A stretch of DNA of 20,355 nucleotides. Origin: a virus. The position numbers and the translations under genes are program-made. The DNA lies in IMG/VR virus record IMGVR_UViG_3300025112_000249, positions 1 through 20,355 of that record; one strand, given 5' to 3'. This document shows positions 10,306 through 19,811 of this stretch, in pieces. The notes beneath the pieces are model-generated. The model had not been told where the DNA came from. It searched no databases and worked only from the letters and a program-made list of their open reading frames with translations. Position 1 is the stretch's first letter. Every line of letters begins with the position of its first letter.

Positions 10306-10491
10306 CTAGCAAACTTTAAAGGAGCCACCACGAAGAGCCGCGCCCATTCCGCGATTTTCCCCCGATACCGAAGTGGCCTTCGACACGTTAGGCGTGGTTT
10401 CGGATTTTGCGTCGTTATAGGGGACGAACCCCTGGTCTTTTACAACAATACCTTTCCGCGCAACGCCCACGGAACTCTTTTTCTTTCCCAT
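10306..10491 (-). CDS. Small conserved basic protein, 61 aa
   Basis: The protein starts MGKKKSSVGVARKGIVVKDQ, is low in hydrophobic residues, and ends GENRGMGAALRGGSFKVC. The ending RGMGAAxRGGxFxxC is a tail motif I recall in many small marine phage proteins placed after the portal gene. It lies 12 bases after the portal stop, with AGGAG as ribosome binding site. No domain is visible; it is likely disordered or a virion-associated peptide. The function is unknown. Confidence 0.65.
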   Translation of the reverse strand: MGKKKSSVGVARKGIVVKDQGFVPYNDAKSETTPNVSKATSVSGENRGMGAALRGGSFKVC

Positions 10492-10503: not shown

Positions 10504-12933
10504 TTAATCACCTTGTTTCATCATTTCGCGTTCCCGCGCCGCTTGGATTCGGGCCTCTACAATTTCTTCCTGGGACTGTATCCTCTGGGCCCCAAGATTC
10601 GCGGTAGACTGTGCCTTTTGTTGATCCAAGGCAAGACGTGCCTGATCTATCTGGTTCTCAGCCTCGTCGCGTTTTGCACGAAGTTGCAAGTCTTGTTCTT
10701 TCAAAGCAACCAAGGGGTCAGGTCCTTGCTGCCCTTCTCCACTTATCTGGGCGCTGAGTGATTTAAGCTCTTGCATGCCCTGCGCTATCTGCTCGGCAAC
10801 CATGGATTCTATTTGTAAAATCTGGTCCTCAGTCGGCGCTTGGCCTTGAAGCTGCTGCATCATCTGAGAGGACACCTGCTCCTTAGCCCCTATAGAAACA
10901 TGCTCCATAATGTGTTTTTGCAGCGCCATAGCGACCGAAGGAAGCTGCCCGACCATGGGGGAAGACCCAAAAACTAGATGAGCCATTATGTGAGCTTTGT
11001 GGTTCTGGCCTTGGAACGCCTCTAGTTCAATGTTTTCAAGTGCTTCCGAATTCTCCACTGCGGGGTCTTTAGGAACCGCCTCTTCCTGATCTATGACCTT
11101 GAGAATAGAATCAACATCTTTGACACCAAGCGCCTTGTACATCCTACGAAACGCTTCGTACATGTTATGCAAATCCGGAGCCGCTTGCGCCAACTGTAGC
11201 TCAGTCTGCGCCATAGTGACCCTTTGCGACATGGAGAATATGTTAGGATCGGAAACTGGAATAACGTCAATCCTATCATCAAAATCCTCCGATTTTATAA
11301 CGCGTTCAGCCCCTACAACGTTGTAGGGGTACTCCGGTGGGAGGGATTCTCCAAACACCTTTGCAAGAAGATCAAACTCGTCTTTCTGGGCGTAATGCAG
11401 CCGTTTATGTATGGCCGACATTACTTTGGCACCCTGCTCCAGCATTGCGATGGTAGTCCCAACCGCAGCTTGCTGGTTTCCGTCACCTACCTGTAAATTA
11501 GATACCGCAGCGAACCGCTGACCGGCCTCCACACAAAACCCCATCAACTGGAACAAGGTCTGATCCGCCCCCTTGTATGGAAGGAGCATCAGCGAATCCC
11601 GAATAGCACCTCCGGGAGAATCCACGTCCCGGAACTCGCCCGGAGACAGGGGTTCGTCATCGTTCCTGATACGAAGACCGCGAGTCTTGAAACCTGCGGG
11701 CAAGTTAGCTAAGGTCCCCGCGTCAATAAGCTGGCGTAACGCAGCAGTGGCTGTTCGGCTCAACCCGCCAATCATGTGGATTAAACCCAAGCCATAGAAA
11801 CCAAACCCGGGAAGGAACTTAAAGTGAACAAAATACTGGTTTTTCTTACGATCCTGATCCCCCTCCTTGTAGTTCCTGCGAATGCTGAGAACCTTGCCGT
11901 TATCTTCTGAAACGGTAACAACGTAAGGGAGCTTGATGCCGGTGGGTTCACCGCCGGAATCGGAATCCTCAAAGCCTTCAAGATCTAGGTCTACGTGGCA
12001 TTCAAGTAACGTGACCTCGGTATCCAAACGGCTGGGCTCTATTCCACTTATATCGTCCATCTCCTCACGGACCTCGGACGGGTCCGACTGGGATGCGGAG
12101 ACTTTAATATCGGAATAGAAACCGGCTACCTGCTTCTTCCGAAGCTCGTTCTCCGAAATTTGAATAACATGTGTTACATTCTCGGCTGTTTCCAGATCCG
12201 TAGCGGTATACGGAACAATTAGCTGTTCCGCAGGAACGAACTTGCTAACCGCACGCCCCAGGAAATCATCGTAATACACCTTTTTGAACGTAGAACCCGC
12301 TAGCGGCAGGTAAAACAGCATTTGGTCAAATTCAGGTGTGTATTCCTTCATAACACACGTGATTTGGTAATTCATAAAGTTGCGAACACGATCCGATTGA
12401 GCCTCTATGTCCGGAGAAGACTCACCCATTATCTGAGTATTTACAGGGCCCCCTGCGGGCAACAATTCACCAAAAGCCTGCGCTTGAAACTGAGTCACGG
12501 CTTCTGCAAGAAGAGGGTGCGTCACGCCTGTCGCACCACGGAACGGTTCCGCCCGCTCCTCGTATTTGAAACCTAAAAGCTCCAGACCGGTTCGGTACGT
12601 GTCTTCCCAATCTTTACGACCGTCCTTGTTAGCTTCGTACTGATCTAAAAGATCCGAAGCTATTCGAGACAGAACTCCCGTATCTGCTTCTTCTGCAAGA
12701 TTGTCATAAAACCCGGCGCTTGAAACTTGATCCATCCTTGGATCAAAATCAACGATAACACCACCGTCATCTTCCAGTTCTATGTTCAAACCGGGCGCTT
12801 CAATTATGCTGTCGTCGTCAAACGAGACTTCCGCGTCCAGACCTTCTTCCAGTTCCACGGGCGGTATCTCGTTGCGCCTTTCTACAAGAGAGGCCGTCCC
12901 GAAATTACTGCGGGGGAGCGGGTTTCTAGCCAT
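10504..12933 (-). CDS. Portal protein, P22-like long form, 809 aa
   Basis: The 809-aa protein has an acidic, disordered N-terminus (residues 1-70), then a core with YRTGLELLGFKYEERAEPFR, GATGVTHPLLAEAVTQFQAQ, EFDQMLFYLPLAGSTFKKVY and DFLGRAVSKFVPAEQLIVPY. These segments mark the clip/stem body of long podovirus-type portals. The mid region includes KFLPGFGFYGLGLIHMIGGL. About residues 690-809 form a Gln/Glu-rich helical tail that could be the barrel extending into the capsid, as in P22. The portal is a dodecameric ring at one vertex, the docking site for the terminase and the exit for DNA. Neighbours are a Pro/Gly-rich protein upstream and a small conserved protein downstream. Family call is strong; the subtype is from memory. 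Confidence 0.88.
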   Translation of the reverse strand: MARNPLPRSNFGTASLVERRNEIPPVELEEGLDAEVSFDDDSIIEAPGLNIELEDDGGVIVDFDPRMDQVSSAGFYDNLAEEADTGVLSRIASDLLDQYEANKDGRKDWEDTYRTGLELLGFKYEERAEPFRGATGVTHPLLAEAVTQFQAQAFGELLPAGGPVNTQIMGESSPDIEAQSDRVRNFMNYQITCVMKEYTPEFDQMLFYLPLAGSTFKKVYYDDFLGRAVSKFVPAEQLIVPYTATDLETAENVTHVIQISENELRKKQVAGFYSDIKVSASQSDPSEVREEMDDISGIEPSRLDTEVTLLECHVDLDLEGFEDSDSGGEPTGIKLPYVVTVSEDNGKVLSIRRNYKEGDQDRKKNQYFVHFKFLPGFGFYGLGLIHMIGGLSRTATAALRQLIDAGTLANLPAGFKTRGLRIRNDDEPLSPGEFRDVDSPGGAIRDSLMLLPYKGADQTLFQLMGFCVEAGQRFAAVSNLQVGDGNQQAAVGTTIAMLEQGAKVMSAIHKRLHYAQKDEFDLLAKVFGESLPPEYPYNVVGAERVIKSEDFDDRIDVIPVSDPNIFSMSQRVTMAQTELQLAQAAPDLHNMYEAFRRMYKALGVKDVDSILKVIDQEEAVPKDPAVENSEALENIELEAFQGQNHKAHIMAHLVFGSSPMVGQLPSVAMALQKHIMEHVSIGAKEQVSSQMMQQLQGQAPTEDQILQIESMVAEQIAQGMQELKSLSAQISGEGQQGPDPLVALKEQDLQLRAKRDEAENQIDQARLALDQQKAQSTANLGAQRIQSQEEIVEARIQAAREREMMKQGD

Positions 12934-12935
12934 GT

Positions 12936-13517
12936 TTACCTACGCCTCAGAGACATCAGACCGCCTCCGGCCATTCCCTGGAAGCCGCTCGGCATCGCTT
13001 GCGGGGGGGCCATCGGGGGGGCCATATCAGGGTGTTGCCTCATTTCGGGAGGAACCCCCGTGTATGGAGCACCGCCCATGCCTCCTGCGGCAGGGGCAGC
13101 GGCCCCCGGTTGCGGGGGGGCAAAGCGTGCTATCATTCTTTGAAGGTAATTTGCGACCTGCGGGTTTTGTCTAGCCGCTTCTAGAAGATCGGCTTGGTTT
13201 GCAGAAATAAACGCCACTACATCCTGTGTAGTTCCACTTTGCTCTAGATCTGTTAACTCTCGGACCACGGCCATCGAATCTGTACGACCACTAGCGGCCA
13301 TTACTACGTTCGAAGCATCTACAGGGGCACCCATCGCCGCACTCACACCCCGTTGTGTCGGATTTCCGACAGACTCTACAAGGTTACCGTTGGCATAACC
13401 AACGGGGCGGAAGCCCATCATGCCGCCGTCGCGCATACCCATGGCTTGCTTATATTGTTCAGCCGCCGCCATGCCTTGCGGCGTGTACGGAAATTCGCGT
13501 CCCATTACGTTAGGCAT
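12936..13517 (-). CDS. Pro/Gly/Met-rich virion-associated protein, 193 aa
   Basis: Start ATG 13517 (MPNVMGREFPYTPQGMAAAE) is preferred to the GTG four codons upstream: GGTGG is well placed, and it gives an 8-nt overlap (ATGCCTAA) with the upstream gene. MPNVMGxxFPYTxxGM is a start I recall in marine phages. Next comes MRDGGMMGFRPVGYANGN, a helical middle with DSMAVVRELTDLEQSG and NQADLLEAARQNPQVANYLQ (which recalls DUF-type portal-neighbour proteins), then a Pro/Gly/Met-rich linker, and the C-terminus MAGGGLMSLRRR. It lies 2 bases upstream of the portal gene. The role is unknown; a head-completion, portal-associated or packaged protein is plausible. Confidence 0.7.
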   Translation of the reverse strand: MPNVMGREFPYTPQGMAAAEQYKQAMGMRDGGMMGFRPVGYANGNLVESVGNPTQRGVSAAMGAPVDASNVVMAASGRTDSMAVVRELTDLEQSGTTQDVVAFISANQADLLEAARQNPQVANYLQRMIARFAPPQPGAAAPAAGGMGGAPYTGVPPEMRQHPDMAPPMAPPQAMPSGFQGMAGGGLMSLRRR

Positions 13518-14485: not shown

Positions 14486-15535
14486 CTAATTGGACCGTAA
14501 GTAAGTTAAATAATCCCGCGCTAATCTAAGGTCTTCAAATACACGTATAAACCCCGGGTGACTCTCCTCGACGCGCGGGTCAATCACAACTGACATGGTC
14601 GCGCCGTCGTCCTGACTTCCAAACTGATGCCTGCTCGCATAATCGTCCACGTACTTATACCCCCGGGTCTTTATCAAATGCGTCGATAATTTTGTATCCA
14701 CATCCTCCGTTACAAAATAACCCCACTCGTGATGGTGACCCTGCCCCAGTACCCGGATAGGTAATGACGCAAACTTGCTGGCACGCATGGGACCGTGAAG
14801 TATGTTGTATATACTGGTTCCTTTCATGCTGTGCGCCAACCATGTGGGGCACTTCTTGCCGTTAGGAAAAGCAATATTGAATTTTGCCTGCCAGTCGAAC
14901 ACATGCACCGTATTCTTTAACATCTGCTTTATAGCATAAGCATGTTCCGCACTCATAGTGTCGTGATTGCCCAGCAAACATAAAAGGTACTTCACGCCGC
15001 TCTCAACCATGAGCCACTCAACAAGCCGGTAAGCCGTGTTGCGGCTACTGTCCTGATCGGCCCACAACCGCATCAACCTGCCAGCCCACGCATTCGACGC
15101 ATCACCCATCTGTACACAGTACATCCCGGGGGTTGCTGCCATTATGCCACAGTCTTCACGCAACAAGGGCCAGTTGCACCCGTTATCGTCTACGTGCGGG
15201 TCGCCCATCAAACACAAAGCCATGGGCTTGTTGTCAGGCATGTCTATATCAAACCACTCGCGTGCCTTGTGGTGAGCGTGCTGCTTCTTGAACCGCTCAG
15301 ACATGTGGTTGATAATGTTTTCAATAGGTATGTCTTCTTCACCAAAATCCGGAAGAAGAGGAGGGGGATTGTTTTGACCAGCGGCCAAGGACTGTTTTCG
15401 CGCCTGCATTATCCGGGACCGAAGCGTGCTTTCTGCGACGTTCAAAGCACGGGCGGCTGCGGCGACAGACTCGTGACGCGCCACCGCGTCCAAACACTCT
15501 TGTAAAATGGTTCTATCTAAAGGCTTACTAGCCAT
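14486..15535 (-). CDS. HTH and calcineurin-like metallophosphoesterase fusion, 349 aa
   Basis: Residues about 10-46 form a helix-turn-helix (ARHESVAAAARALNVAESTL, then RSRIMQARK), which implies DNA binding. The body is a calcineurin-like phosphoesterase with all five signature blocks: GDPHVD (D112, H114), MGDASN (D145), LLGNHD (N190, H191), AHS (H235) and GQGHHHEWG (H267, H269). These bind two metal ions in the family. Substrate is unknown; nucleic-acid ends or cyclic nucleotides are the usual candidates. It is located between terminase and portal genes, so a role in DNA processing during packaging, or in host signalling, is possible. ATG overlaps the upstream TAA by one base. The length and motifs look intact. 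Confidence 0.85.
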   Translation of the reverse strand: MASKPLDRTILQECLDAVARHESVAAAARALNVAESTLRSRIMQARKQSLAAGQNNPPPLLPDFGEEDIPIENIINHMSERFKKQHAHHKAREWFDIDMPDNKPMALCLMGDPHVDDNGCNWPLLREDCGIMAATPGMYCVQMGDASNAWAGRLMRLWADQDSSRNTAYRLVEWLMVESGVKYLLCLLGNHDTMSAEHAYAIKQMLKNTVHVFDWQAKFNIAFPNGKKCPTWLAHSMKGTSIYNILHGPMRASKFASLPIRVLGQGHHHEWGYFVTEDVDTKLSTHLIKTRGYKYVDDYASRHQFGSQDDGATMSVVIDPRVEESHPGFIRVFEDLRLARDYLTYLRSN

Positions 15536-15822
15536 TATGTGCCTTTAGGGGGTATTTTTGGGTCGCGGGGGGTCCAACCTTGACCGGCAGACGCAACGCA
15601 GGAACGACCGCTTGCGTCGGTAATGACGATGGTCCATGAGCCGTTTTCCGATACAAATACTTCAATGAGCCTGTTGGCATCCGCCAATCCGTTAGCTGTT
15701 AATACTTCCTGCCACCTGTCCCACAGCCTTTGAACAATTTCCTCCCGTTTTGCACATATGTCTTGCGCGGAAGCCGAAGATACAGCCACGAAAAATAAAA
15801 TAAGGAAGGTTAGAAGTTTCAT
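15535..15822 (-). CDS. Small exported protein with signal peptide, 95 aa
   Basis: Start ATG 15822 (MKLLTFLILFFVAVSSASAQ) gives a compact signal peptide with a likely signal-peptidase cut after ASA at about residue 19. A GTG three codons earlier is possible. The mature part of about 75 residues has two Cys (C24 region and near C80) that could form a disulfide, and the conserved-looking stretch EVFVSENGSWTIVITDASGR followed by SCVASAGQGW. I recall homologues in marine phages and alphaproteobacteria, without assigned function. Export to the periplasm suggests surface modification, superinfection exclusion or a lysis-related role, which is inference. No clear Shine-Dalgarno precedes it. Confidence 0.7.
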   Translation of the reverse strand: MKLLTFLILFFVAVSSASAQDICAKREEIVQRLWDRWQEVLTANGLADANRLIEVFVSENGSWTIVITDASGRSCVASAGQGWTPRDPKIPPKGT

Positions 15823-15842
15823 GTCACGCACTTTTACGTGGT

Positions 15843-17309
15843 TTACGGGTCATACAAGGGCTTAACTACAAAACCACCCCGCGCCTTTTCTGTATCCGGG
15901 TCTTCATCTACAAGACGAAGGTAAGACGGGGGCTCGGGATTGAGGATGTCTTGTATTCGAGCGCGAACTGTTTCCGAGTCTACCTGGGGCCGGTCCGGAT
16001 CTATTCTAATCAACATGTCGTTACGGGTTTTGGGAAACGTGTGGTCTAGCAAACCTCTTCCGTCGCGTTGTTTAAGAAGCGCGTCTATGGAACGGATTCT
16101 GTCCGGGGAAAGGTTAGATAATATCCGCCCAAGGTCTTGGGGAAACCAATCCGATCCCACACCAAGATATTCGGAGGGCAATGAACCAAGGGCCTTGAAA
16201 AGGGTTCCTTCAGTCTCTTCCCGTTGCCTAGCCATGCTTTGAAAATACGAGTCGGGGAGGTCCGGAACAGGACCAAATGGCGACGGACTTATCCGTTCTT
16301 TCAAATCGTAAATTCGTTCAACAAGATTACTTAGTCGTTTTTCGAGGAGAGGGTCTTCTTTGCTGAGTTTTTGTATCCGCCGCTGTATCCGCTGCGTAAC
16401 ATCTCGTTTAACTGGAATACCGGTTAGATCTGAAAGTTCATTCTTTGCCGCCCTTAATCGCCGTTTGATAGTGCTTTGGGACACCTCATCCAAAGGTTTT
16501 TCCGTTCGCCCTTCAATAACGCTAAAAGTCTCCCCCGGCATGTCGTCGTCCGAGATCCCAAGTTTTTCCTTGAACGATTCAAGGCCCGGCTTGTCCATGC
16601 CAAAAAATTCATGGGTGGGCTGGGCAAGAAACTCCCGCACGTCGTTCTTTTGCTCTTCGGTTAAAAGATGCTCGTAGCCCTGCTGTAGGGCTTGGATAAG
16701 AGGAAACATCCTACGGCGCATCAAATTTCCGATACCGCTGCCGAATGTTTTTCCCTCGGGCCCTGCTTTTCCCTTGGGCCGTGGTTCGTCGCCCGAGGTC
16801 TGTGCAAGCCGGGAAGCTGCGGCGGCTGCGTCAATTGCGGTGGGTAAATTAGACTGGTCCGGGGGCCGTGAGCCAAGGCGCTTGCTGTAAAAGTCCTTCC
16901 AATCTTCAAAATCACCCCCGGGTACGGATTCTTGAAACTCCGCGTTGGTTCCCACAGGTTCCGGTAAACTAAAAACGTCTAAAACTTCAGAGGGTTCTAC
17001 AAGACGAAGACTTTGCTGGGCAGATTGCCCAAGATTGAGATCCCCCGAAGGGTCCTTCTGCCAGTGATTGCCACCCTCCAAGGTTAATATTGAAATATCC
17101 GAGGGAGAAGCCTCGAACTCCCAAGCCATTTTAGTAGCCCAGTTAAGAGCTTCCTTTGGGTCTGAGAACCCGTATACGGAGGGGTCTTGCTGATACCGCT
17201 CCCCAGTTTCAGCCTTCTCCCACAAACTTTGAGAAAGGGGATCTAGACCCCTCTTTTGGATGTCCGCCACATTTTTCGTAAAAGTTACGTGGTAAACAGG
17301 ATTAGCCAT
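15843..17309 (-). CDS. Large protein with ADP-ribosyltransferase-like N-terminus, 488 aa
   Basis: Start ATG 17309 (MANPVYHVTFTKNVADIQKR) is chosen over the ATG two codons upstream because it gives an ATGGCTAA overlap with the zinc-ribbon gene. Residues 5-80 follow a pattern seen in ADP-ribosyltransferase-fold and KptA-like proteins: YHVTFTKNVADIQKRGLDP, then SVYGFSDPKEALNWATKMAW and DISILTLEG. The enzyme call is tentative, since only the early His and the GLxP turn are recognisable. Residues 150-400 are charged and helical, without familiar motifs. The C-terminus ARGGFVVKPLYDP is nearly identical to that of the protein at 17453-18355. It could be a packaged or ejected protein acting in the host. 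Confidence 0.65.
   Translation of the reverse strand: MANPVYHVTFTKNVADIQKRGLDPLSQSLWEKAETGERYQQDPSVYGFSDPKEALNWATKMAWEFEASPSDISILTLEGGNHWQKDPSGDLNLGQSAQQSLRLVEPSEVLDVFSLPEPVGTNAEFQESVPGGDFEDWKDFYSKRLGSRPPDQSNLPTAIDAAAAASRLAQTSGDEPRPKGKAGPEGKTFGSGIGNLMRRRMFPLIQALQQGYEHLLTEEQKNDVREFLAQPTHEFFGMDKPGLESFKEKLGISDDDMPGETFSVIEGRTEKPLDEVSQSTIKRRLRAAKNELSDLTGIPVKRDVTQRIQRRIQKLSKEDPLLEKRLSNLVERIYDLKERISPSPFGPVPDLPDSYFQSMARQREETEGTLFKALGSLPSEYLGVGSDWFPQDLGRILSNLSPDRIRSIDALLKQRDGRGLLDHTFPKTRNDMLIRIDPDRPQVDSETVRARIQDILNPEPPSYLRLVDEDPDTEKARGGFVVKPLYDP
15851..15878 (-). repeat. Shared 28-bp C-terminal tag, copy 1
   Basis: This stretch codes the GGFVVKPLYD end of the 488-aa protein. It matches 17473-17500 at 24 of 28 bases, although the rest of the two genes is not visibly similar. 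Confidence 0.7.
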
Positions 17310-17460
17310 CCTCAAGGGCTCCCCAGCAGGCGTCGTTCGAGGTGCAGGTGCAATCCACGCACTGATAACGGCTCTCTACCCACGCCTTGGGTTTGTCGCA
17401 CCCGCAAACAGGGCACTTCGGGTCTTTTTCTGCAATGGAATCCGCTGGTTCGTCAGCCAT
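17302..17460 (-). CDS. 52-aa zinc-ribbon protein
   Basis: The frame runs from ATG 17460 to TAA at 17302-17304. The sequence has KCPVCGCDKPKAW followed by YQCVDCTCTSNDACWG, giving a CxxC...CxxC pair (C16, C19, C34, C37) as in zinc ribbons, with extra Cys at 21, 39 and 45. Such a mini-domain binds one Zn and usually contacts nucleic acid or a protein partner. It overlaps the upstream gene by ATGGCTGA and the downstream gene by ATGGCTAA. It sits exactly between the two proteins that share a C-terminal tag, so it may act with them. Function unknown. Confidence 0.75.
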   Translation of the reverse strand: MADEPADSIAEKDPKCPVCGCDKPKAWVESRYQCVDCTCTSNDACWGALEDG

Positions 17461-18355
17461 AGGGGCCCCTATCGTACAAGGGTTTGTCTACAAAACCACC
17501 GTTAGCCCGGTTTTCTGGTTTTCTTTCTTCTGTCAATTTTGGGGGGAAACGAGACTGTTGGTCTAGTTCATTTTCAGCCGCAGCGTTTAACTCAATTATG
17601 TAATCAACCCATCTTTTTTCCCTGCGACTAAGTTTTCTACTGTAGGGGTAGGGGATATTTTCTTGACGAGACACAACCCCCATAGCAATCCTCGCTACAG
17701 ACCAACTTACAGGACTGTTGCTTACAAAGTTTAATTTTTTTTGAGAGGGCACAACTGGTCTTGGAGTTCCTAGTCTTTTGTAAAATTGCATGGAATCCAA
17801 CACTTGCATCACACTTTCTTCCGAAAAATTTCCTTTTGGCAACTTTCCTTGTTTTCTAAGGTGTTCAAATCCTGCGTGCCCAAACTCATGTGATTCTGCC
17901 TCATTAAGGCTTATTTTTTGTAAGTTTGAAGCTTCTTTGTCAGTAAGGTTGCTTACTTTTCCGCTATGAACCAAATCCCTAAAATCGGAAGTGTTTACAT
18001 GAACCGTGCCTCTTTTAGGATCATAAACACCTCGCGTGCCGGTGCCATATATTGGGTTCTCGGGATAGTCCCCCATGGTTTGGGAGTTCTGCCTTAAAAA
18101 GGTTGCTAAAGACAAACCGGATTTGGCTAACTCTTCTTTAGAAACCCGGGGTGCCGTCACAGGGGAATAGAATTTTGAAAGATCTGTTCTGGCGTCTTCT
18201 CCTCCATGCCTTTTTGCTAAAGCGCGAAACCCCAGATAACTTAAAGGATTAAAATAAGTGTCGTTTACCCTTTCCGCCGTAAACTCTACGTCAGCTAAAT
18301 TTACCGCAGAATCATAACCTTCGGGGTATACGTTATCTTGTTGGTCGTCAGCCAT
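17453..18355 (-). CDS. Zincin-like HEFGH protein, 300 aa
   Basis: Start ATG 18355 (MADDQQDNVYPEGYDSAVNL) is preferred to one 21 codons upstream that lies inside terL, since it makes an 8-nt ATGGCTGA overlap. At residues 151-165 NEAESHEFGHAGFEH contains HExxH (H156, E157, H160), the zinc-binding and catalytic motif of gluzincin/metzincin peptidases; H165 or a downstream Glu (E179/E180) could be the third ligand. Preceding text GTRGVYDPKRGTVHVNTSDF is plausible for a beta-strand edge of the active site. The C-terminus NGGFVDKPLYDRGPYG carries the shared tag. No signal peptide is seen. It may be a virion-borne peptidase for host entry or a maturation protease; the metal motif is certain, the activity is not. 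Confidence 0.7.
   Translation of the reverse strand: MADDQQDNVYPEGYDSAVNLADVEFTAERVNDTYFNPLSYLGFRALAKRHGGEDARTDLSKFYSPVTAPRVSKEELAKSGLSLATFLRQNSQTMGDYPENPIYGTGTRGVYDPKRGTVHVNTSDFRDLVHSGKVSNLTDKEASNLQKISLNEAESHEFGHAGFEHLRKQGKLPKGNFSEESVMQVLDSMQFYKRLGTPRPVVPSQKKLNFVSNSPVSWSVARIAMGVVSRQENIPYPYSRKLSRREKRWVDYIIELNAAAENELDQQSRFPPKLTEERKPENRANGGFVDKPLYDRGPYG
17473..17500 (-). repeat. Shared 28-bp C-terminal tag, copy 2
   Basis: This stretch codes the GGFVDKPLYD end of the zincin-like protein and matches 15851-15878 at 24 of 28 bases. Confidence 0.7.
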
Positions 18356-19811
18356 AGTAACTCCGTATGTAGGTAGACGGCTCACTGTCAACCCAATCGT
18401 CGCTCGGCAACTGTACAAAATTGCCCTGACGATAACGCATCAGAGCTTGCGTGGTGCTGTCTACAAGGTCATCGTGAGCGCCATTCGGAAATGCCGCGCA
18501 CTCGTCAATAACCTCGTCCGCCCAACGTTCGTCCGGGGCCCAAATCATCCCGCTCTCAAATAGCGGAGAAACAGAATGGACCCTCGTAAGCTTATCGTTT
18601 CCTTTGCTTGGTGTAAAGTTTACAACAGGTATGCCAAGTTGCCTAAGCTCCTGAGTCAGCGGCAACCCAGAAGCCTTCGCCTCCACAATGACCGTCTCAG
18701 GCTCCCAGAAGTTGAACTGTTCCAAAGCCTGCGTTTTTAGCTCCGGAAAATCCCAGCGCCCCTTCTTTGAATCCAGAAGTATCAAATTCGCGGGACCGTC
18801 CTGCTGGGGATAAAACACACCCCACGTCGTTATCGCGCTGAAATCCGAAGTCTCCTTGCGACTGAACGCCGTGTCATAACTCTGTATTACATACTCAAGT
18901 TGCGGAATCTCCTCCTCTTCCCAACGCTTCCACCACTCCTTCTTGATGATAGCCCCTTCCTTGGACGTGGGGTTCTGCTGCCACTGCGCGTTCCACTTGG
19001 AAACAGACAACGAAGCGCGAACACCCTCCAATTCCTCCTTCTTCCAATACTCAGGCCAACAGGAATTCCCGCTCGGCATCAAAGCAGGAAACTCTATTAT
19101 CTCCCACTTGTCCGCATTCTCATCATAGCCCTGGGCCTTGATTACCTTCTCCGTCAAATCGCGCAACGACCAACGGGTCATTACAATGACAATGGCACCC
19201 CCGGGCTGCAAACGCTGCCGGGGACCCGAAGTGTACCACTCATACGCATGGTCCATGGCCGTATCAGAAAGAGCATCCTGCTCCGAATGAGGATCGTCAA
19301 TAATCAACAAATCAGCACCGCGACCGGTTATCGCACCGCCTACACCAGCAGCAAAATACTCCCCACCATGGTTCGTGGACCACCGGCCCGCAGCCTTGCT
19401 GTCAGCCTGTAGGTTTACAGAATCAAAAATATTTTGGTACTCGGATGTTGCAATGAGATTACGAACTTTACGGCCAAAGTTTACAGCTAGCTCCGCAGTG
19501 TGGGTGGTTTGGATTATCTTTGTTTTCGGCTCACGGCCAATGATCCATGACGGAAACAGGTAACTCGCGAACTCTGACTTCGTATGCCGTGGAGGCATGT
19601 TGATTATCAGACGCTTGTTTTTCCCCGTTGCAATGTCCTCGAACTTCTTTGCAATCATTCGGTGATGGGCCCCTGTAATAAATTCCGGCCAGACTTTCCT
19701 GACGTACTTCAGGAAGTCCTCCCTGCACCCTTCTACCTCTGACATCTGGGCGAGCCGAAGCTCTAGTTTTAGCCTGCGGTCTTGGACTTCCGGCGTCTCT
19801 GTTCGGAGCAT
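18348..19811 (-). CDS. terL: Terminase large subunit (TerL)
   Basis: The 487-aa product is complete and of normal length. The ATPase part has NMPPRHTKSE at 71-80 (Walker A variant with K78 and S79), ADLLIIDDPHSEQD at 166-179 (Walker B D172, D173) and VMTRW at 210-214 (coupling motif). The nuclease part has SYDTAFS (D313), VIVEAKASG (E377) and HDDLVDST (D447, D448, D451), the RNase H-like metal site. It drives DNA into the prohead through the portal and cuts it at the end. The ribosome binding site is GAGAGG, 5 bases from the ATG. A small terminase gene is not seen and may lie beyond the right edge. It is the first gene of the transcript that follows the parS/promoter region. Confidence 0.93.
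   Translation of the reverse strand: MLRTETPEVQDRRLKLELRLAQMSEVEGCREDFLKYVRKVWPEFITGAHHRMIAKKFEDIATGKNKRLIINMPPRHTKSEFASYLFPSWIIGREPKTKIIQTTHTAELAVNFGRKVRNLIATSEYQNIFDSVNLQADSKAAGRWSTNHGGEYFAAGVGGAITGRGADLLIIDDPHSEQDALSDTAMDHAYEWYTSGPRQRLQPGGAIVIVMTRWSLRDLTEKVIKAQGYDENADKWEIIEFPALMPSGNSCWPEYWKKEELEGVRASLSVSKWNAQWQQNPTSKEGAIIKKEWWKRWEEEEIPQLEYVIQSYDTAFSRKETSDFSAITTWGVFYPQQDGPANLILLDSKKGRWDFPELKTQALEQFNFWEPETVIVEAKASGLPLTQELRQLGIPVVNFTPSKGNDKLTRVHSVSPLFESGMIWAPDERWADEVIDECAAFPNGAHDDLVDSTTQALMRYRQGNFVQLPSDDWVDSEPSTYIRSYYG

Follow-up and report, generated by a model that had tools for sequence, protein, structure and literature searches.

Gene order of the window and its terminase–portal slot

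The window, the whole stretch of DNA analysed here, is a 20,355-bp virus record with its genes on the minus strand. In minus-strand order, these encode a terminase, two proteins that share a C-terminal peptide tag and flank a zinc ribbon, a small secreted-type protein, an exonuclease-like protein, a possible beta-barrel-like protein, a MPNVMGREFPYTP protein, and the portal. The terminase large subunit gene overlaps the start of the next gene by a few bases. The probable ATG starts of the tagged genes were placed at 18355 (payload 1, zincin-like) and 17309 (payload 2), which corrects the preliminary description. The features are as follows.

18348..19811, minus strand: terminase large subunit (PHROG 38, E 5e-112; Terminase_6C), upstream border of the putative cargo slot
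17453..18355, minus strand: tagged payload 1, a 300-aa zincin-type metallopeptidase (HEFGH) with no cysteine and a disordered tail (homologue alignment and model)
17471..17500, minus strand: C-terminal tag GGFVDKPLYD of payload 1, followed by RGPYG and the stop
17302..17460, minus strand: 52-aa zinc-ribbon protein (CPVCGC...CVDCTC), kept in many, not all, relatives
15843..17309, minus strand: tagged payload 2, a 488-aa modular protein with 0 cysteine
16935..17309, minus strand: variable N-terminal domain of payload 2, the part earlier labelled ART-like, with homologues L032 and L044 and no Pfam, PDB or ART-profile match
16554..16778, minus strand: shared 75-aa core module of payload 2 (GIGNLMRRRMFPLIQ...HEFFG...FKEKLG)
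15897..16505, minus strand: variable C-terminal domain of payload 2, common to L061 (72%) and L055 (36%)
15849..15878, minus strand: C-terminal tag GGFVVKPLYD of payload 2, followed by P and the stop
15535-15831: 98-aa protein, small secreted-type
14486-15535: exonuclease-like protein
12936..13517, minus strand: cysteine-free MPNVMGREFPYTP protein with a constant N-terminus, a variable middle and the constant C-terminal motif GGLMSLRRR
10504..12933, minus strand: portal protein, downstream border of the putative cargo slot (assigned by position and by tblastn against portals annotated in relatives)

Judged by the terminase, the closest cultured relatives were short-tailed Pelagibacter phages of the HTVC023P/HTVC027P type, 023Pt_psg01, and DSL-LC04 (57–65% identical). 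The window and these relatives have a common gene order of terminase, variable genes, portal, GroES, and capsid. Elsewhere in the window, in a repeat protein at 883-1542 that is possibly fibre-like, a unit of 20 residues recurs ~5 times (60-bp tandem repeat, 1200-1479). At the contig end (20038-20349), the 7-bp unit GGGCACC is repeated ~45 times; this array could be genuine or have arisen in assembly.

We surveyed 39 complete terminase–portal slots from the nearest clade, with a small number of near-duplicates among them. Slot length ranged from 1.7 to 7.6 kb, and tagged cargo was present in 27 of the slots and absent from the other 12, showing that the slot is an optional, changing cassette. 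The tag is not required for every slot protein, since some untagged slots still held large proteins free of cysteine. The zinc ribbon between the two tagged genes had been proposed as an adaptor for them. Of the 27 tagged slots, 16 lacked it, and 7 of the 12 untagged ones carried it; this lack of association with the tag indicates that it is not a general adaptor.

Conservation and spread of the C-terminal tag

Both window proteins end in GGFVxKPLYD on the minus strand where the preliminary description had placed it, and over their first 28 bp the two tag DNAs, read side by side, are identical at 24 positions. The remainder of the proteins is dissimilar, as had also been described: BLASTP aligned the tag alone (23 columns, E 6e-4), with other segments at the level of noise. 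Plain paralogy was therefore rejected for the pair. Two outcomes had been named in advance as refuting a common tag, namely its loss in homologues and full-length homology of the two proteins; we found that homologues of both proteins retain the tag, and no full-length homology was detected. The exact codon-degenerate pattern matched the window twice, with 0 matches for a reversed control pattern. A chance origin of the tag pair is excluded.

The exact pattern was found in 16 IMG/VR contigs and two laxer codon-degenerate patterns in 45 and 69 viral contigs, giving a union of 73 for the three scans. In bacterial and archaeal genomes totalling 257 Gb, the exact pattern occurred in one place, which was unrelated. 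A total of 62 distinct C-terminally tagged proteins came from translating the terminase loci together with the hits of the exact and the first laxer scan, and every tag match in the new contigs of the third scan was also C-terminal. In a six-frame search of the 1.4 Mb of fetched loci, 102 of 105 regex matches had a stop no more than 25 residues away. Of the remaining three, two were a single internal tag counted twice, in L051, which resembles a fusion of two tagged proteins with the first tag left inside. Shuffled versions of the tagged proteins yielded 0 matches. The motif was chosen by search in part of this sample; the 80 loci fetched by terminase similarity alone carry the same tags. Among 50,697 phage records, tblastn with the tag peptide (an insensitive query) and with four tagged proteins gave no match to isolated phages, and no cultured relative with tagged proteins was found. 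Likewise, NCBIfam held no relevant match that would give the tag a name, and a literature search returned no paper with KPLYD together with phage.

The positions of the tagged proteins were consistent. Forty of the 62 lay between terminase and portal, 6 followed the terminase on contigs without a portal, and 11 preceded the portal on contigs without a terminase. One was directly after a terminase whose portal is on the other side, and 4 were on contigs with neither gene. In the fetched loci, no tag was found outside these positions.

In an alignment of 54 tagged proteins, the motif was the only conserved part. Residues G478 and Y486 were invariant, and G479, K483, P484, and L485 were conserved in at least 90%, while the residues after the tag core varied, with 1–9 of them following PLY. 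At tag residues that are fixed or nearly so, the third codon position showed ~0.9–1.7 bits of variation across the 58 distinct tag DNAs. Wobble positions that are nearly saturated while the residues stay fixed point to selection on the peptide rather than on the DNA. The payload 1 tag lies in a region of the structural model (residues 270–300) with pLDDT below 50, and such a predicted disordered tail would fit a linear docking motif.

Payload repertoire and cysteine content

When the tag was removed, the tagged proteins split into seven unconnected groups, the largest of which is a mosaic of partly overlapping modules. The 75-aa core module of payload 2 was found in 23 of the 62 tagged proteins, between different domains, and several disparate domains share one chain in L039 (1410 aa), L009, and L051. 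Pfam domains among the 54 tagged proteins included ART-PolyVal (8) and LPD23 (8), with GNAT found twice in the tagged set; polyvalent-type domains scored above Pfam cut-offs in L013, L055, and L009, and PHROGs added ParB-like and endolysin matches. In a distant clade (terminase 54–68% identical), the proteins have a constant N-terminus, then an ART-like, GNAT or other payload, and then GGFIDKPLYDTKKDIF. A common origin of this N-terminus and the 75-aa core module was considered and is not claimed (hhalign probability 24%).

Payload 1 had no Pfam, PHROG or NCBIfam match. Its HEFGH motif or a variant of it (HE..H) was invariant in six homologues, and the best PDB matches of its model (pLDDT 68, moderate) were zinc metallopeptidases (Z 6.6 over 138 residues), whereas a BFVD structural search with the model gave no significant match. 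An HExxH motif in a zincin fold, as seen in the homologue alignment and this moderate model, bears out the earlier zincin-like assignment. The ART-like label given to payload 2 found no support: Pfam, PHROG, and a sequence search of the PDB gave no match for this protein, nor did hhalign comparison with members of ART-PolyVal, and its full-length model was too poor to use (pLDDT 44).

Cysteine was nearly absent from the tagged proteins, with 2 in 28,247 residues. Same-clade terminases had 116 in 18,399 (0.63%), portals 31 in 9,543, and the exonuclease-like neighbour 7 in 349. The known ejected proteins of T7, P22, and N4 also had only 2 cysteines in 7,952 residues, compared with 52 in 8,829 (0.6%) for the shell and tail proteins of these phages and 122 in 8,725 (1.4%) for cytoplasmic phage proteins; the shell and cytoplasmic control genes were hand-picked from annotation and are not exhaustive. 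The P1 Dar proteins and T4 Alt, IPI, and gp2 were low in cysteine but not free of it (16 in 5,410). Since the effect is weaker in these contractile-tail phages, we claim the cysteine mark for short-tailed phages only. The lack of cysteine would probably be due to unfolded passage through the oxidising periplasm. Two papers on ejection proteins make no reference to cysteine. Cysteine avoidance fits ejection and is silent on the role of the tag. For the ejected proteins of short-tailed phages, it provides another, independent mark at the sequence level.

A putative docking signal for probable ejected cargo

We propose that the tag is a C-terminal docking signal by which interchangeable payloads are loaded into the virion and ejected in the style of polyvalent proteins, a reading to which we assign a probability of roughly 0.6 from the genomic evidence. 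In short-tailed marine phages, GGFVxKPLYD, placed in a disordered tail and fixed to exchangeable cysteine-free payloads of the terminase–portal slot, would most likely bring each payload to the head during assembly, with the portal vertex or inner core as the probable site. On infection, the payloads would exit together with the DNA and take effect early in the new host, as is assumed for polyvalent proteins. A receptor should exist in both clades, which favours the portal, a scaffold or the capsid. The preliminary description had suggested a recognition signal on different cargo, for example for encapsidation, portal docking or ejection. A single signal is supported by the retention of the tag in homologues of both window proteins, which lack full-length homology to each other; encapsidated and ejected cargo is favoured by location, payload repertoire, and the near-absence of cysteine, while loading, portal docking, and ejection of the tagged proteins are what we infer from these genes. 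The same holds for presence in virions, loading via the tag, the receptor, and effector action, which we infer on the same grounds. Against the docking signal we count the absence of the tag from 12 of 39 same-clade slots, the variable post-tag residues, and the N-terminal position of the known T4 and P1 signals.

The polyvalent proteins of phages and conjugative elements (Iyer et al. 2017, PMC5512222) are believed to be packaged and then injected. Like the tagged set, they include ART-PolyVal, LPD23, metallopeptidase, and ParB-like domains, adjoin virion genes, and are modular and variable. In contrast to them, many tagged payloads are individual proteins of medium size that have a single C-terminal peptide in common, and no such tag was found when PMC5512222 was searched for a tag, a packaging signal, and C-termini. 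The two window proteins match no polyvalent Pfam domain; they belong to the tagged set and are not filed as polyvalent members. T4 internal proteins and Alt, as well as P1 DarB, carry N-terminal capsid-targeting sequences (PMC5694885, PMC9024508). These resemble the tag in being short peptides on injected cargo, and the T4 signal serves several cargo proteins; however, both are N-terminal and that of T4 is cleaved, whereas GGFVxKPLYD is C-terminal in essentially all cases. No consensus signal was found for the P1 Dar proteins (PMC9024508), in contrast to the obvious tag here. The ejection proteins T7 gp14-16, P22 gp7/16/20, and N4 gp50-52 are similar to the tagged proteins in near-zero cysteine, location in a virion gene cluster, and short-tailed phage type, but they are fixed and mostly essential, while the tagged proteins are optional, interchangeable enzymes. 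The cargo-loading peptide of encapsulins, which have an HK97-fold shell, is also C-terminal and loads unrelated cargo, a likeness that we take as analogy only. By eye, KPLYD is unlike the M. xanthus encapsulin peptide LTVGSLRR (a string present in PMC5959871), and only the neighbouring SLRRR motif resembles it.

Other roles for the tag have to be weighed against docking in the head. The cargo might be ejected as proposed while the tag acts later, by coupling to the ejection channel, setting the order of exit, or binding a host factor after entry. The location and cysteine evidence applies equally to such a tag, and a disordered C-terminal tail could lead or trail during passage, but the short common peptides known on injected proteins are head-loading signals (T4 and P1; PMC9024508, PMC5694885), and we consider a later role unlikely. 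That the tag is instead a processing site for a phage or cargo protease during maturation appears quite unlikely. Zincins are frequent among the payloads, polyvalent metallopeptidases have been proposed to self-process (PMC5512222), and the L051 fusion keeps its internal tag at the joint like a cleavable linker; yet many tagged sets have no zincin (L032, L045, L061, L122), cleavage would remove little given the 1–9 residues after PLY, and a cut site would not be expected to have so long a conserved core.

The payloads could also be cytoplasmic enzymes that serve the producing cell, with the tag as a stability or localisation signal there. They are indeed enzymatic, and the slot includes clearly cytoplasmic or exported genes (the exonuclease-like and 98-aa proteins), but their near-zero cysteine sets them apart from the exonuclease-like neighbour, the terminase, and cytoplasmic phage enzymes in general (1.4%), making this very unlikely. 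A leftover of gene shuffling, in which the tag is a recombination anchor or an inherited 3' end with no peptide function, is highly improbable. Modules are swapped around constant segments, and L033 is a payload-less remnant directly after the terminase, a tiny reading frame of start plus tag alone (MAEPEFASGGLVDKPLYNNSRVIG). Post-tag tails are also more alike within a genome than expected, as only 16 of 5000 permutations reached the observed value. A DNA anchor would nevertheless conserve all positions, whereas third positions are near-saturated, and the tag is kept in frame and terminal across terminases just 54% identical.

Injection of enzymes alongside the DNA is established for phages, and the way in which a head selects a changing set of cargo is little understood. 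If the tag is the proposed docking signal, it would offer a portable loading signal, and being short and searchable, it could allow injected effectors to be catalogued in marine metagenomes with sequence as the sole input. More tentatively, and at somewhat less than even odds, different clades of marine short-tailed phages may use different C-terminal address codes (GGFVDKPLYD, GGGxxSLxxIARxM, and SLRRR-type) to load cysteine-free effectors into the head; any enzyme gaining such a tail would then become deliverable.

Further C-terminal motifs recur near the portal and in related slots. The MPNVMGREFPYTP protein encoded before the portal (12936-13517, with relatives in L024-L061) has a constant start and a variable middle, is ~135–790 aa long, and has no cysteine. 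The MPNVMGREFPYTP proteins end in GGLMSLRRR or GGLASLRRY, recalling LTVGSLRR, and this is possibly a second address tag. In a neighbouring clade (L063, L070, L079), dissimilar slot proteins end in GGGxxSLxxIARxM, possibly an equivalent tag. Giant proteins of 1,190–1,521 aa with zero cysteine occupy the terminase–portal slots of L073, L097, L098, and L071. Small near-portal proteins (10306-10491 in the window; L057:8115-8306; L022, which is HTVC023P gp32) end in RGMGAALRGGSFKVC-like motifs, which also recur.
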